Positions 39,627 through 42,708 of a DNA stretch of 64,000 bases are shown one piece after another. Below the pieces are notes generated by a model, which had not been told where the DNA came from, made no database searches, and saw only the letters and a list, made by a program, of their open reading frames with translations. Position numbers and translations under genes: made by a program. The DNA comes from Streptomyces sp. ICBB 8177 (GTDB taxonomy: Bacteria; Actinomycetota; Actinomycetes; Streptomycetales; Streptomycetaceae): assembly GCF_003144095.1 (NCBI RefSeq), contig NZ_NSKH01000023.1, positions 544,964 through 608,963 of the forward strand, in the 5' to 3' direction. How positions within the stretch are numbered: the first letter of the stretch is position 1; each line of letters begins with the position of its first letter.

Positions 39627-40538
39627 CTAGGCCTCGGCGAGCAGCCGCTTGAGGAATTCGGCGGTGTCCTTGGGCTGTTCGGCCTCCGCGGACAGCCGGT
39701 CCATCACCGACATGTAGTTGTCGACGTCGTCCAGCTTGTCCAGGTACAGGGCGCTGGTCAGCTGTTCGAGGTAGACGACGTCCGGCAGGTCCGGCTCCTG
39801 GAAGCGCAGGATGGTGATCGGGCCGCCCGCCGCCGCCAGCCCGCCGATGTCGAACGGGGCCACCTGCACGGTGACGTTCGGCAGCTCGGTGATCCGCAGC
39901 AGGTGCTCCAGCTGACCGCGCATCACCTCGCGCCCGCCCAGCGGCCTGCGCAGCGCCGCCTCGTCCACGACCGCCCACAGCCGCGGCGCGTCGGGCGCCT
40001 GGAGCAGCTGCTGGCGCTTCATGCGCAGCTCCACGCGGCGCTCGATCTCGCGCTGCGACGCGTGGCGGTACCCCAGCCTGGTGACCGCTCGGGCGTAGTC
40101 CTCGGTCTGCAACAGGCCGGGCACGAACTGGACTTCGTAGGTGCGGATCAGGGAGGCGGCCTCTTCGAGACCGATCAGCGTCTCGAACCACTGCTCCAGC
40201 ACGTCGCCGTACTGCTGCCACCAGCCGGGCATCCCGGCCTGCCGGGCGAGTTCGAGGTACTGCGCGCGCTCGTCCGCGTCGTGGACCTCGTAGAGGGTGA
40301 GCAGGTCGGAGACGTCGCGTTCCTTGCAGCCGACGCGGCCGAGTTCGAGGCGGCTGATCTTCGCGTGCGAGCCGCGGATCGCCTCGCCGGCCTGCTCGCG
40401 CGTGATGCCGTTGCGCATGCGCAGCTTGCGCAGTTGGGTTCCCAGCACGATGCGCAGGACGGTCGGGCCACCGCGAGGGTGCTCCAAGTAACGCCTTATC
40501 GGCGGTTCGCTGCTGCTCGGCCGCATCATGGCGGTCAT
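39627..40538 (-). CDS. XRE-family regulator with DUF5753 (WhiJ type)
   Basis: DNA-binding protein of 303 residues. The N-terminal helix-turn-helix is LRKLRMRNGITREQAGEAIRG with SHAKISRLELGR (residues about 35-75); the rest is the DUF5753 domain with YEVQFVPGLLQTEDYARAV and a C-terminal FLKRLLAEA. WhiJ-type regulators and their DUF397 partners occur in many copies in streptomycetes and some affect sporulation. ATG follows AGGAGA by 6 bases. It lies 108 bp downstream of the DUF397 gene on the same strand, with the ATP-binding gene divergent beyond it; an iterated 12-bp repeat lies between the last two. Confidence 0.88.
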   Translation of the reverse strand: MTAMMRPSSSEPPIRRYLEHPRGGPTVLRIVLGTQLRKLRMRNGITREQAGEAIRGSHAKISRLELGRVGCKERDVSDLLTLYEVHDADERAQYLELARQAGMPGWWQQYGDVLEQWFETLIGLEEAASLIRTYEVQFVPGLLQTEDYARAVTRLGYRHASQREIERRVELRMKRQQLLQAPDAPRLWAVVDEAALRRPLGGREVMRGQLEHLLRITELPNVTVQVAPFDIGGLAAAGGPITILRFQEPDLPDVVYLEQLTSALYLDKLDDVDNYMSVMDRLSAEAEQPKDTAEFLKRLLAEA

Positions 40539-40646: not shown

Positions 40647-40895
40647 CTACCGCCCGCCGTCGCCGATCAGCGTGTCGAAGTCGCCGTCCTTGGCACCGCC
40701 GATGAACGCCTCGATCTCGGCACGGGTGTAGATGAGCGCCGGGCCCTCCGGGTGGCGGGAGTTGCGCACCGCGAAGCCGCCCTGGGGGAGCGCGGCCACC
40801 TCGACGCAGTTGCCACCGGGGTTGCTGCGGGCGCTCTTCTTCCACACCACGCCCTCGATGAGCGTGGACCGCACGCCGTTGTCGATCTGCCGCAT
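40647..40895 (-). CDS. DUF397 small protein
   Basis: Protein of 82 residues with the DUF397 core (WKKSARSNPGGNCVEVAAL, GFAVRNSRHPEGPALIYTRAEIEAFIGGAKDGDFD). DUF397 proteins are found beside WhiJ-type XRE regulators and are thought to act with them, possibly as antagonists. ATG follows AGGAG by 9 bases. Five degenerate 12-bp repeats begin 84 bp upstream. Confidence 0.85.
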   Translation of the reverse strand: MRQIDNGVRSTLIEGVVWKKSARSNPGGNCVEVAALPQGGFAVRNSRHPEGPALIYTRAEIEAFIGGAKDGDFDTLIGDGGR

Positions 40896-40947
40896 TCCAG
40901 CCCGCTCCTTCGTCCTCGCTGACACACGACCACTCGCGCAAGTGACC

Positions 40948-40960
40948 TGACGCGCAGTCA
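40948..40960. repeat. Near-copy of TGACG-N3-CGTCA
   Basis: TGACGCGCAGTCA, one mismatch, in the leader of the DUF397 gene beside the iterated repeats. Confidence 0.5.
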
Positions 40961-40978
40961 ACTTCGTTTGCACGTGCA

Positions 40979-41038
40979 TCTGTGCTTACGGGTGTGTTTG
41001 CCGCTGCACTTACCGATGCACTTACTGGTGTGCTTGCC
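40979..41038. repeat. Five degenerate 12-bp tandem repeats
   Basis: Units TCTGTGCTTACG, GGTGTGTTTGCC, GCTGCACTTACC, GATGCACTTACT and GGTGTGCTTGCC lie head to tail; a looser sixth follows. They are poorer in G+C than their surroundings and sit in the divergent region between the DUF397 gene and the ATP-binding gene. Their period (about one helical turn) suits cooperative binding of a regulator, such as the XRE protein. Confidence 0.7.
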
Positions 41039-41145
41039 CGTGACTGTAATTGCAGATGTGCTTGCAGCGCCAGCGTCGCGCGGGAATAGTAGGGCGGGCA
41101 GGAAGACCTTCGTGACGACTGTCGAGAGGCTCCGCGGAGAGCGTG

Positions 41146-41670
41146 ATGACTACACATCCGGTCGGCTCACCAGCACACTCCGCCGGGGACGGATCCCGCA
41201 AGCACTGGCTCGCGCTGGCCGCCGAGGGGGCGTTCCCCTCCGGCGACGAAGGCCGCGGCGCCTCGGGATTCGCCGCCTGCGCCCTCGAAGGCGAGCCCCA
41301 AGCCGTCCCGGGGGCACGGAAGTTCATCCGCTCGACGCTGGACGGCTGGGGGATGGCCGCGCTCTGCGACGACGCGGCGGTGATCGGATCCGAACTGCTG
41401 GGCAACGCCCTGCGCCACGGGCTCACCGGCCGCGGCGAGCGGCCGCTGTCACCGCACCCGATCTGGCTCGGGCTGCTGCGCAGGGGGGACACCGTGCTGT
41501 GCGCGGTCTCCGACCCCAGCTCCGAGACCCCCTGCCTGCGGGCGCCGGACGACCTGGCGACGAGCGGGCGCGGCCTGCGCGTCGTCGACCGCCTCAGCGA
41601 CTCGTGGGGCTGGACCGAGCCGGACGCCGTGGGCAAGGCCGTCTGGGCGGTCGTCTCGGGCCGCGCCTGA
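41146..41670 (+). CDS. Anti-sigma-factor-like ATP-binding protein
   Basis: Cytoplasmic protein of 174 residues with the histidine-kinase-like ATPase fold: N-box AAVIGSELLGNALRHG, G1 CAVSDPSSETP and G2 SGRGLRVVDRLSDSWGW. RsbW/SpoIIAB-type proteins bind ATP and may sequester sigma factors or phosphorylate antagonists. It forms the third element of the WhiJ-type locus. ATG 41146 is chosen over the preceding in-frame GTG because GGAG is 6 bases away. No sigma factor gene is adjacent. Confidence 0.82.
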   Translation: MTTHPVGSPAHSAGDGSRKHWLALAAEGAFPSGDEGRGASGFAACALEGEPQAVPGARKFIRSTLDGWGMAALCDDAAVIGSELLGNALRHGLTGRGERPLSPHPIWLGLLRRGDTVLCAVSDPSSETPCLRAPDDLATSGRGLRVVDRLSDSWGWTEPDAVGKAVWAVVSGRA

Positions 41671-41761: not shown

Positions 41762-42604
41762 TCAGGGCTTGCGCGCCACGCCCGCGTACAGCGGGATGTC
41801 GGTGGGGGACAGGCTGTCCGTCCCGACGTTCACCGGATCCGGACGCCACCGGTGCACCACCTCGACGCCCGGGTCGACCAGGTCGAGGCCGTCGAAGAAC
41901 CTCAGTATCTCGGCCCTCGTACGACTGTTGACGTGCGATCCCTTGGACTCGAAGTTGTCCGACACCTGCCGCAGCGCCTCCGGCTCGAAGTCGGCGGTCA
42001 CATGGCTGAGCGCCAGGTAGCTCCCCGAGGGCAGCGCGTCCATGATCCGGCGGACGATCGCGTGCGGATCGCGTTCCTTCGGCAGCCAGTGCAGCACGGC
42101 GAAGAGCGTCAGCGCCGTCGGCTGCTTCAGGTCGAGGGTCGCGTTGAGCTCCGGATCGTCCAGGATGCCGGCCGGATCACCCAGATCACCGTGGATGTAC
42201 GCGGTCGCGCCGTCGGGGTGGGAGGTGTGCAGGGCGCGCGAGTGCGTCAGCACGATGGGGTCGTTGTCGGCGTAGACGACGCGCGAGGACGGCGCCACCC
42301 GCTGGACCACCTCGTGCAGGTTGGGCGAGGTGGGGATGCCGGTGCCGATGTCGAGGAACTGCCGCACGCCCGCCTCGTCGGCCAGCCAGCGCACCGCGCG
42401 GTGCATGAACGCCCTGTTCTGGCGGGCCGTGGGCACCGCGCTGGGCAGCGCCGCCACGGTCTCCTCGGCTGCCGCGCGGTCGGCCGGGTAGTTGGTCTTG
42501 CCGCCCAGCAGTACGTCGTACACCCGCGCCGCGTGCGGTCTGTCGGTATGCAGGTCCACCGGCGGCCTCGGGTTCGCCTTCATCCAGTCGGCGGCCTCCG
42601 CCAT
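41762..42604 (-). CDS. DUF574 S-adenosylmethionine methyltransferase
   Basis: Protein of 280 residues with the DUF574 (Methyltransf_19) pattern: RPHAARVYDVLLGGKTNYPADR near the N-terminus, the SAM-binding FLDIGTGIPTSPNLHEV, then RVVYADNDPIVLTHSRALH and HWLPKERDPHAIV. The family is abundant in streptomycetes, often in many copies, and substrates are mostly unknown. ATG was chosen over an adjacent in-frame GTG because a GGAG is 8 bases away. It stands alone between the ATP-binding gene and the LacI gene. Confidence 0.85.
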   Translation of the reverse strand: MAEAADWMKANPRPPVDLHTDRPHAARVYDVLLGGKTNYPADRAAAEETVAALPSAVPTARQNRAFMHRAVRWLADEAGVRQFLDIGTGIPTSPNLHEVVQRVAPSSRVVYADNDPIVLTHSRALHTSHPDGATAYIHGDLGDPAGILDDPELNATLDLKQPTALTLFAVLHWLPKERDPHAIVRRIMDALPSGSYLALSHVTADFEPEALRQVSDNFESKGSHVNSRTRAEILRFFDGLDLVDPGVEVVHRWRPDPVNVGTDSLSPTDIPLYAGVARKP

Positions 42605-42708
42605 CACCCGTGCTCCCTCCCGCGCGTGGCCGACCCTGTTGTCAACCCGTCAGCCAGCCTAGCCCGACCGCCGCTGTCCGGATCCGTCGTTCACCCGGTC
42701 CACACACC

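Follow-up and report, generated by a model that had tools for sequence, protein, structure and literature searches.

A 12-bp direct-repeat array as the probable operator of a WhiJ-type XRE–DUF5753 regulator in Streptomyces sp. ICBB 8177

In the 64,000-nucleotide stretch of Streptomyces sp. ICBB 8177 DNA analyzed here (the window), the gap between a DUF397 gene on the minus strand and a divergent gene for an AbaA-like histidine-kinase-type ATPase (HATPase) on the plus strand holds an array of eight 12-bp units. The array spans 100 bp (40969–41068), with six units strictly in register, a 4-nt spacer, and two more units, and the unit consensus is approximately TGYRYTTRC-NNN. Very probably, judging from the sequence evidence below, this array is a multi-site direct-repeat operator of the neighboring WhiJ-type XRE–DUF5753 protein. 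What appears to be new, for a WhiJ-type operator built of direct repeats, is the unit itself, its spacing at 12 bp, and the fact that the number of units varies. WhiJ-type loci are numerous in streptomycetes and act on development and antibiotic production, and targets are known for very few of them. A clade-specific, readable operator would make sites, targets, and partner dependence predictable from sequence.

The eight-unit array is confirmed as genuine and is longer than first reported. A preliminary description placed five 12-bp units of the form [G/T]-x-TG-x-x-CTT-x-CC at 40979–41038. The repeats are real, but TGYRYTTRC-NNN fits better as the unit, and three further units had been missed (TGCACGTGCATC, TGTAATTGCAGA, and TGTGCTTGCAGC). 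The intergenic region (40896–41145) was compared with itself and with 1000 dinucleotide shuffles. The best 24-bp self-match at a shift of 12 was 75%, a value reached by 0 of 1000 shuffles at that shift and by 11 of 1000 at any shift from 8 to 18, while a 48-bp stretch with a self-match of 67% was equaled by 0 of 1000 at any shift. Tandem Repeats Finder alone reported just two copies here (41001–41025). As had been noticed, the repeats are poorer in G+C than their surroundings (54% versus 72% for the window), and equally poor 100-bp segments number 14 of 6390. The proposed spacing of about one helical turn did not hold up, as a 12-bp pitch is about 1.15 turns. The 4-nt spacer is found at the same place in the loci L082/L111 and L083/L112 and in the paralogous loci L258 and L259, and most other HATPase-type orthologues have none.

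Table 1. Features of the locus, with positions in the window.
Feature	Position	Strand	Remarks
XRE–DUF5753 gene, WhiJ-type regulator, presumed binder	39627..40538	-	PF13560, 4.6e-14; PF19054, 1.5e-61
DUF397 gene, BldB-family small protein, 82 aa	40647..40895	-	PF04149, 5.3e-20
Unit 1, TGCACGTGCATC	40969..40980	+	Holds the 10-bp palindrome TGCACGTGCA; unit common to distant relatives
Units 2–6, TGTGCTTACGGG TGTGTTTGCCGC TGCACTTACCGA TGCACTTACTGG TGTGCTTGCCCG	40981..41040	+	Five 12-bp direct repeats, those originally reported; starts at 40981, 40993, 41005, 41017, and 41029
Spacer TGAC, 4 nt	41041..41044	+	Between units 6 and 7
Units 7–8, TGTAATTGCAGA (41045) and TGTGCTTGCAGC (41057)	41045..41068	+	Conserved better than the rest of the array in HATPase-type orthologues
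Probable -35 of the HATPase promoter, TTGCAG	41062..41067	+	Within unit 8; picked by eye
Probable -10, AATAGT	41085..41090	+	GATAGT in most of 15 orthologues; picked by eye
AbaA-like HATPase gene, presumed divergent target	41146..41670	+	PF13581, 2.4e-6

The earlier placement of the repeats upstream within a WhiJ-type locus is borne out by Pfam, which matched an XRE-type HTH together with DUF5753, an adjacent DUF397 (BldB-family) gene, and an adjacent AbaA-like HATPase, the last being a common but not universal neighbor at such loci. The HATPase match, at 28 bits, exceeds the cut-off of 27.4. The XRE gene lies downstream of the DUF397 gene on the same strand, and its start (ATG at 40538) was picked by eye. 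So was the DUF397 start at 40895, which has AGGAG upstream and is common to many orthologues. The DUF397 frame is open as far as an ATG at 40979 inside unit 1, making a longer start formally possible; orthologues align from 40895. The closest named relative in our searches is Streptantibioticus parmotrematis (XRE protein 96% identical), so that the window probably comes from that genus. Convergent to the HATPase gene is an S-adenosyl methyltransferase gene (41762–42607; PF04672, 1e-108). In orthologues, a GATAGT-like -10 stands at a nearly fixed distance past the last unit, with TTGCAG in the -35 position, and a sigma-70 consensus scan reported no promoter at its threshold. The array probably overlaps the putative HATPase promoter at its -35.

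Within the genome, the repeats keep to loci of this kind. A strict two-unit pattern has three matches in 6.3 Mb, two here and one at a second XRE–DUF397–HATPase locus (gene context assigned by tblastn), and the control gave 0. When up to two mismatches were allowed over the whole genome, 15 of 15 matches, a count that covers both strands and includes some places twice, fell at three XRE–DUF397 loci, and the reversed control gave one. The third of these loci is at C17:1299964–1300994. The XRE proteins of the two paralogous loci are 72% and 59% identical to that of the window, and the second XRE–DUF397–HATPase locus has the same array minus one unit (seven versus eight). The preliminary description had named a lack of repeats at paralogous loci as grounds for giving up its reading of the array as WhiJ-type binding sites. 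Repeats are present at two of the other XRE–DUF397 loci of the genome, and that reading is supported by the sequence evidence. At the same stringency of up to two mismatches, no trans sites were found in the window's own genome.

To a considerable extent, the pattern also accompanies the XRE gene among relatives. In 297 genomes of the family, 25 have a strict match and 43 have an XRE orthologue (E ≤ 1e-115). The strict match occurs in 18 of the 43 genomes with an orthologue versus 7 of the 254 without one (Fisher p 5e-12). For the 18 genomes with both, the match is at the XRE locus in 12, only at candidate targets elsewhere in three (G043, G205, and G291), and at seemingly unrelated places in the remaining three (G013, G026, and G033). 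Read backwards, the strict pattern is found in 58 of 297 genomes (counted from the match list), mostly once or twice in each, versus 25 forward. Consequently, isolated single matches are weak evidence.

A PWM was built from 32 loci, with scores summed over three units and a threshold of 15 bits, and was applied to 204 loci, some of which overlap. It passed the threshold at a pitch of 12 in 72 of 204 loci and at 9, 10, 11, 13, or 15 in none. Other pitches gave 17 of 204 (14), 3 of 204 (16), and 42 each (18 and 24, each a multiple of a half unit). In the reversed control the highest score was 16.7 bits, seen once, and the 95th percentile was 6.1. On 23 untrained loci (L237–L259), the array was found in 16. 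By a loose counter, the number of units among orthologues runs from two to about nine. That counter allowed only steps of 12 plus one of 16 and, given reversed sequence, still returned as many as five “units”; its spacing tally was for these reasons set aside in favor of the PWM scan.

The array is restricted to this XRE clade and is associated with DUF397-bearing loci. We counted it by identity to the window's XRE protein over L033–L048, L081–L190, and L237–L259, a set that leaves out the WhiJ9-like loci L221–L236 and the overlapping L001–L032 and L049–L080. Duplicates were dropped, namely L035 (the L259 locus), L082 (almost the same as L111), and any locus whose XRE stretch exactly repeated another. 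At 66% identity or more, the array is present in 42 of 42 de-duplicated loci with DUF397, training loci included, and in 0 of 4 loci without DUF397, meaning that none was found within the fetched stretch. The array or a two-unit form is present in 13 of 25 loci at 60–66% identity, in 15 of 18 at 55–60% (L129, L136, and L143 fail), in 1 of 3 at 50–55%, and in 0 of 52 below 50%. The two-unit form is frequent among the 55–66% members, and it has no reversed match in any identity bin. The 12 failures at 60–66% comprise five loci with TGCACGTGCA upstream, six without DUF397, and one (L132) with DUF397 and neither form. For comparison, TGCACGTGCA lies upstream in 1 of the 40 loci L151–L190. Five loci (L113, which is L238, and L240, L251, L254, and L256) have an XRE gene whose product is 62–72% identical to that of the window and has an identical or almost identical helix, and they have neither a DUF397 gene in the fetched stretch nor an array. 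In two others (L244 and L246; XRE 69%, no DUF397) there are just two weaker units (9.9 bits). Array and XRE protein are thus not inseparable, as the five loci without the array show.

Orthologous loci with the array occur in several genera, and their divergent gene is not always a HATPase gene. At L103, L105, and L109 (and also L107, L108, and L110), no HATPase was found, and a small frame with a LTRLLLLLEIAD-like stretch starts beyond the array; the one such frame tried had no Pfam match.

To measure conservation, 15 selected orthologues were compared, with a regular expression for the last two units as the anchor. These two units have a mean identity of 99%, a value inflated by the anchoring, and the flanks diverge. 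Counting from the right, unit three averages 71% and unit four 59%. To the right of the array, the first two 20-bp blocks are at 51% and 48% and the next two at 37% and 32%, and identity 90–130 bp to the left is 29–31%.

More distant members add information on the first unit. In Streptomyces relatives whose XRE protein is 56–60% identical, DUF397 is a separate gene, and TGCACGTGCA is found both before it and in the HATPase–XRE gap in 12 of 12 listed loci. The first unit therefore recurs at separate DUF397 promoters, and its presence at both places points to one regulator for the DUF397, HATPase, and XRE genes. A further Streptomyces locus of similar identity outside the 12 (L143) has neither the array nor the two-unit form. 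TGCACGTGCA is also present in gaps at the locus in Actinomadura, Sphaerisporangium, Micromonospora, and others. The site and the recognition-helix region change together: TGYRYTTRC arrays are accompanied by SHAKISRLELGR, TGCACGTGCATC-type sites by SESKISRxELGR, and GTTGAGNNCG by GYTGAAISALET-like helices.

The preliminary remark on how poorly the operators of WhiJ proteins are defined is partly outdated, as the operator of Streptomyces venezuelae WhiJ9 was mapped in 2023. According to the available portion of PMC10294661, WhiJ9 binds three direct repeats CGXXCTCAAC, as seen by SPR, and is required to activate its divergent neighbor iosA. It also reports a rise of all five abaA paralogues when bldB is mutated and offers, as speculation, control of these paralogues by neighboring WhiJ proteins. 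In the literature searched on WhiJ, DUF397, DUF5753, and direct repeats, WhiJ9 was the sole WhiJ-type case with mapped repeats; a footprint of S. coelicolor SCO1979 may be in print. Searches of the same literature for TGCAGATGTACTTGC, and for TGCACGTGCATC with Streptomyces, found nothing, and GCAAGTGCA is too short for a useful literature search.

The iosA–whiJ9 gap and the locus described here have much in common, as far as the available text on WhiJ9 goes. Each has a WhiJ-family XRE gene beside a DUF397 (BldB-family) gene and short direct repeats in the gap toward a divergent target. That several repeats contribute to binding by WhiJ9 would be a further likeness to the mechanism proposed for the array. 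However, the consensus CGXXCTCAAC is not that of our units, and the resemblance is one of outline only: WhiJ9 has three repeats, at a 10-bp pitch in WhiJ9-like loci, whereas TGYRYTTRC is repeated here at 12 bp, in two to about nine units, and the array overlaps the putative -35. When the WhiJ9 consensus was sought in the 297 genomes with gaps of 0–2 nt, the pattern occurred in 61 genomes. Where the repeats abut at a 10-bp pitch, 12 of 16 places lie directly at XRE–DUF397 genes and four elsewhere, and where gaps are 1–2 nt, 0 of 27 loci hold an XRE gene; these counts leave out one abutting place (G098) and about 27 wider-gap places. Going by the consensus alone, the 12 abutting-repeat loci would be WhiJ9 orthologues. 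At four WhiJ9-like loci, the XRE protein has only about 27–34% identity to the window's. With 10 bp there and 12 bp here, these look like two clades of one family whose direct repeats differ in unit and in pitch. Palindromic autoregulatory sites of XRE proteins offer another comparison. SCO1979 is cited in the accessible part of PMC12565409 as binding upstream of its own gene, and the sites here likewise lie upstream of the regulator's own gene, with the palindrome TGCACGTGCA in unit 1. Unlike the sites in that text, they form a long tandem array and not a single palindrome.

In the mechanism we propose, several XRE molecules would sit side by side on the 12-bp direct repeats, which are upstream of the DUF397–XRE pair and, at their other end, run into the putative -35 region of the HATPase promoter. 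The bound row would set transcription of the HATPase gene and probably that of the DUF397 and XRE genes too, with DUF397 as a modulator of the row. Binding of the XRE protein to the array, its cooperativity, the promoter, and the role of DUF397 are all inferred. Activation of the HATPase gene seems somewhat more likely than repression, by analogy with the need for WhiJ9 in iosA activation. An operator on an abaA-like promoter is also what is predicted by the idea that neighboring WhiJ proteins control the abaA paralogues.

The same protein could instead read the array as a repressor-only autoregulatory site of the DUF397–XRE pair, in the style of a toxin–antitoxin module, with the HATPase promoter incidental. 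XRE–DUF397 pairs have been proposed as such modules (PMC2701414, in the part available), and in some orthologues (L089) the array is about 20 bp from the DUF397 start. However, the distance from the array to the HATPase -10 is nearly constant, whereas that to DUF397 varies. Moreover, 14 DUF397 proteins showed no clear toxicity on overexpression in the portion of PMC10364602 available, and the requirement for WhiJ9 in activating its divergent neighbor also speaks against repression only. We regard this alternative as unlikely, though deserving of some weight. Much less probable is occupation of the array by another factor, such as the pleiotropic BldC, a MerR-like protein that binds head-to-tail, as a row, on direct repeats of varying number (PMC5859096, as excerpted). 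The variable repeat number is a real likeness, and AATT of the BldC unit AATTXXXX(C) occurs in one of our units (41048–41051). However, AATT is absent from seven of the eight units, although the exact consensus is not critical according to the same excerpt. BldC has a pleiotropic regulon, whereas every relaxed match found in the genome is at an XRE–DUF397 locus, and the array follows the XRE clade. The array may sit in the DUF397 transcript leader and slippage can create tandem units, but action in RNA or an unselected tandem duplication is barely credible given that an Rfam search found no match, that the last two units are nearly invariant in the 15 chosen orthologues while the flanks diverge (a contrast inflated by the regular-expression anchoring), and that two-unit copies stand before unrelated genes elsewhere.

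Some of those copies may be targets of the XRE operator system in trans. In G145, G268, and G043 (L332, L333, and L335), an enoyl-CoA hydratase gene has a two-unit site before it, and the encoded proteins are 83–91% identical to that of G043; in G205 and G291 (L334 and L336; 78%), an ECF sigma factor gene has such a site. All five genomes hold an XRE orthologue. G145 has a further site on C42, to which no gene was assigned. Because the reversed pattern occurs in 58 genomes, the enoyl-CoA hydratase and ECF sigma sites are candidate trans targets and not proof of them. A broader and tentative idea, which we think more doubtful than not, is that WhiJ-type proteins form rows with a clade-specific unit and an unvarying pitch (10 bp for WhiJ9-like loci, 12 bp for the present clade, and perhaps 11 bp for a third one). 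Unit number (two to about nine; eight versus seven in the paralogues) would then be an evolvable dial, and recruitment of the repeat before ECF sigma and enoyl-CoA hydratase genes could have produced a small regulon in some genomes.

The structure predicted for the XRE protein is confident (mean pLDDT 90.3, 49 sequences), and no solved structure was found for it by sequence. Its N-terminal part resembles XRE-type DNA-binding domains such as that of ClgR (Foldseek E 0.005). The C-terminal DUF5753 part aligns with phospholipase-D-fold proteins, including SauUSI (Z 11.7, 144 residues, 3.0 Å), a phospholipase D (Z 10.2), and Nuc (Z 9.8), and likenesses at Z of about 9–12 include Zucchini, FAM83B, and the regulator TrmBL2. 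No Foldseek match reaches E 0.001 (SauUSI 0.05), and with such weak E-values the likeness is a lead only. A phospholipase D-like fold could indicate that this part is a sensor or dimer domain. DUF397 is only weakly like Phd (E 0.12).

The general rule that an array of this kind is present at all WhiJ-type loci was tested and rejected, as other clades carry other upstream sequences. Loci of the L033 clade have a single palindrome, TCTGCAAATTACAGA and variants, among the 15 listed of 30 fetched, and two 11-bp TGTACTRCCGG-like repeats are present in 4 of the 14 listed, of 30 fetched, for the L034 clade. Elements of these other clades (the TCTGCAAATTACAGA-type palindrome or 11-bp repeats) are seen at L271, L273, L275, L299, and L301–L330. 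Unbiased period scans of other paralogues gave results mostly resembling coding noise. At L151 and L155, a conserved GAGAGTTCCATTTTGAGAGTT element lies upstream of XRE genes whose products are about 40% identical to the window's.
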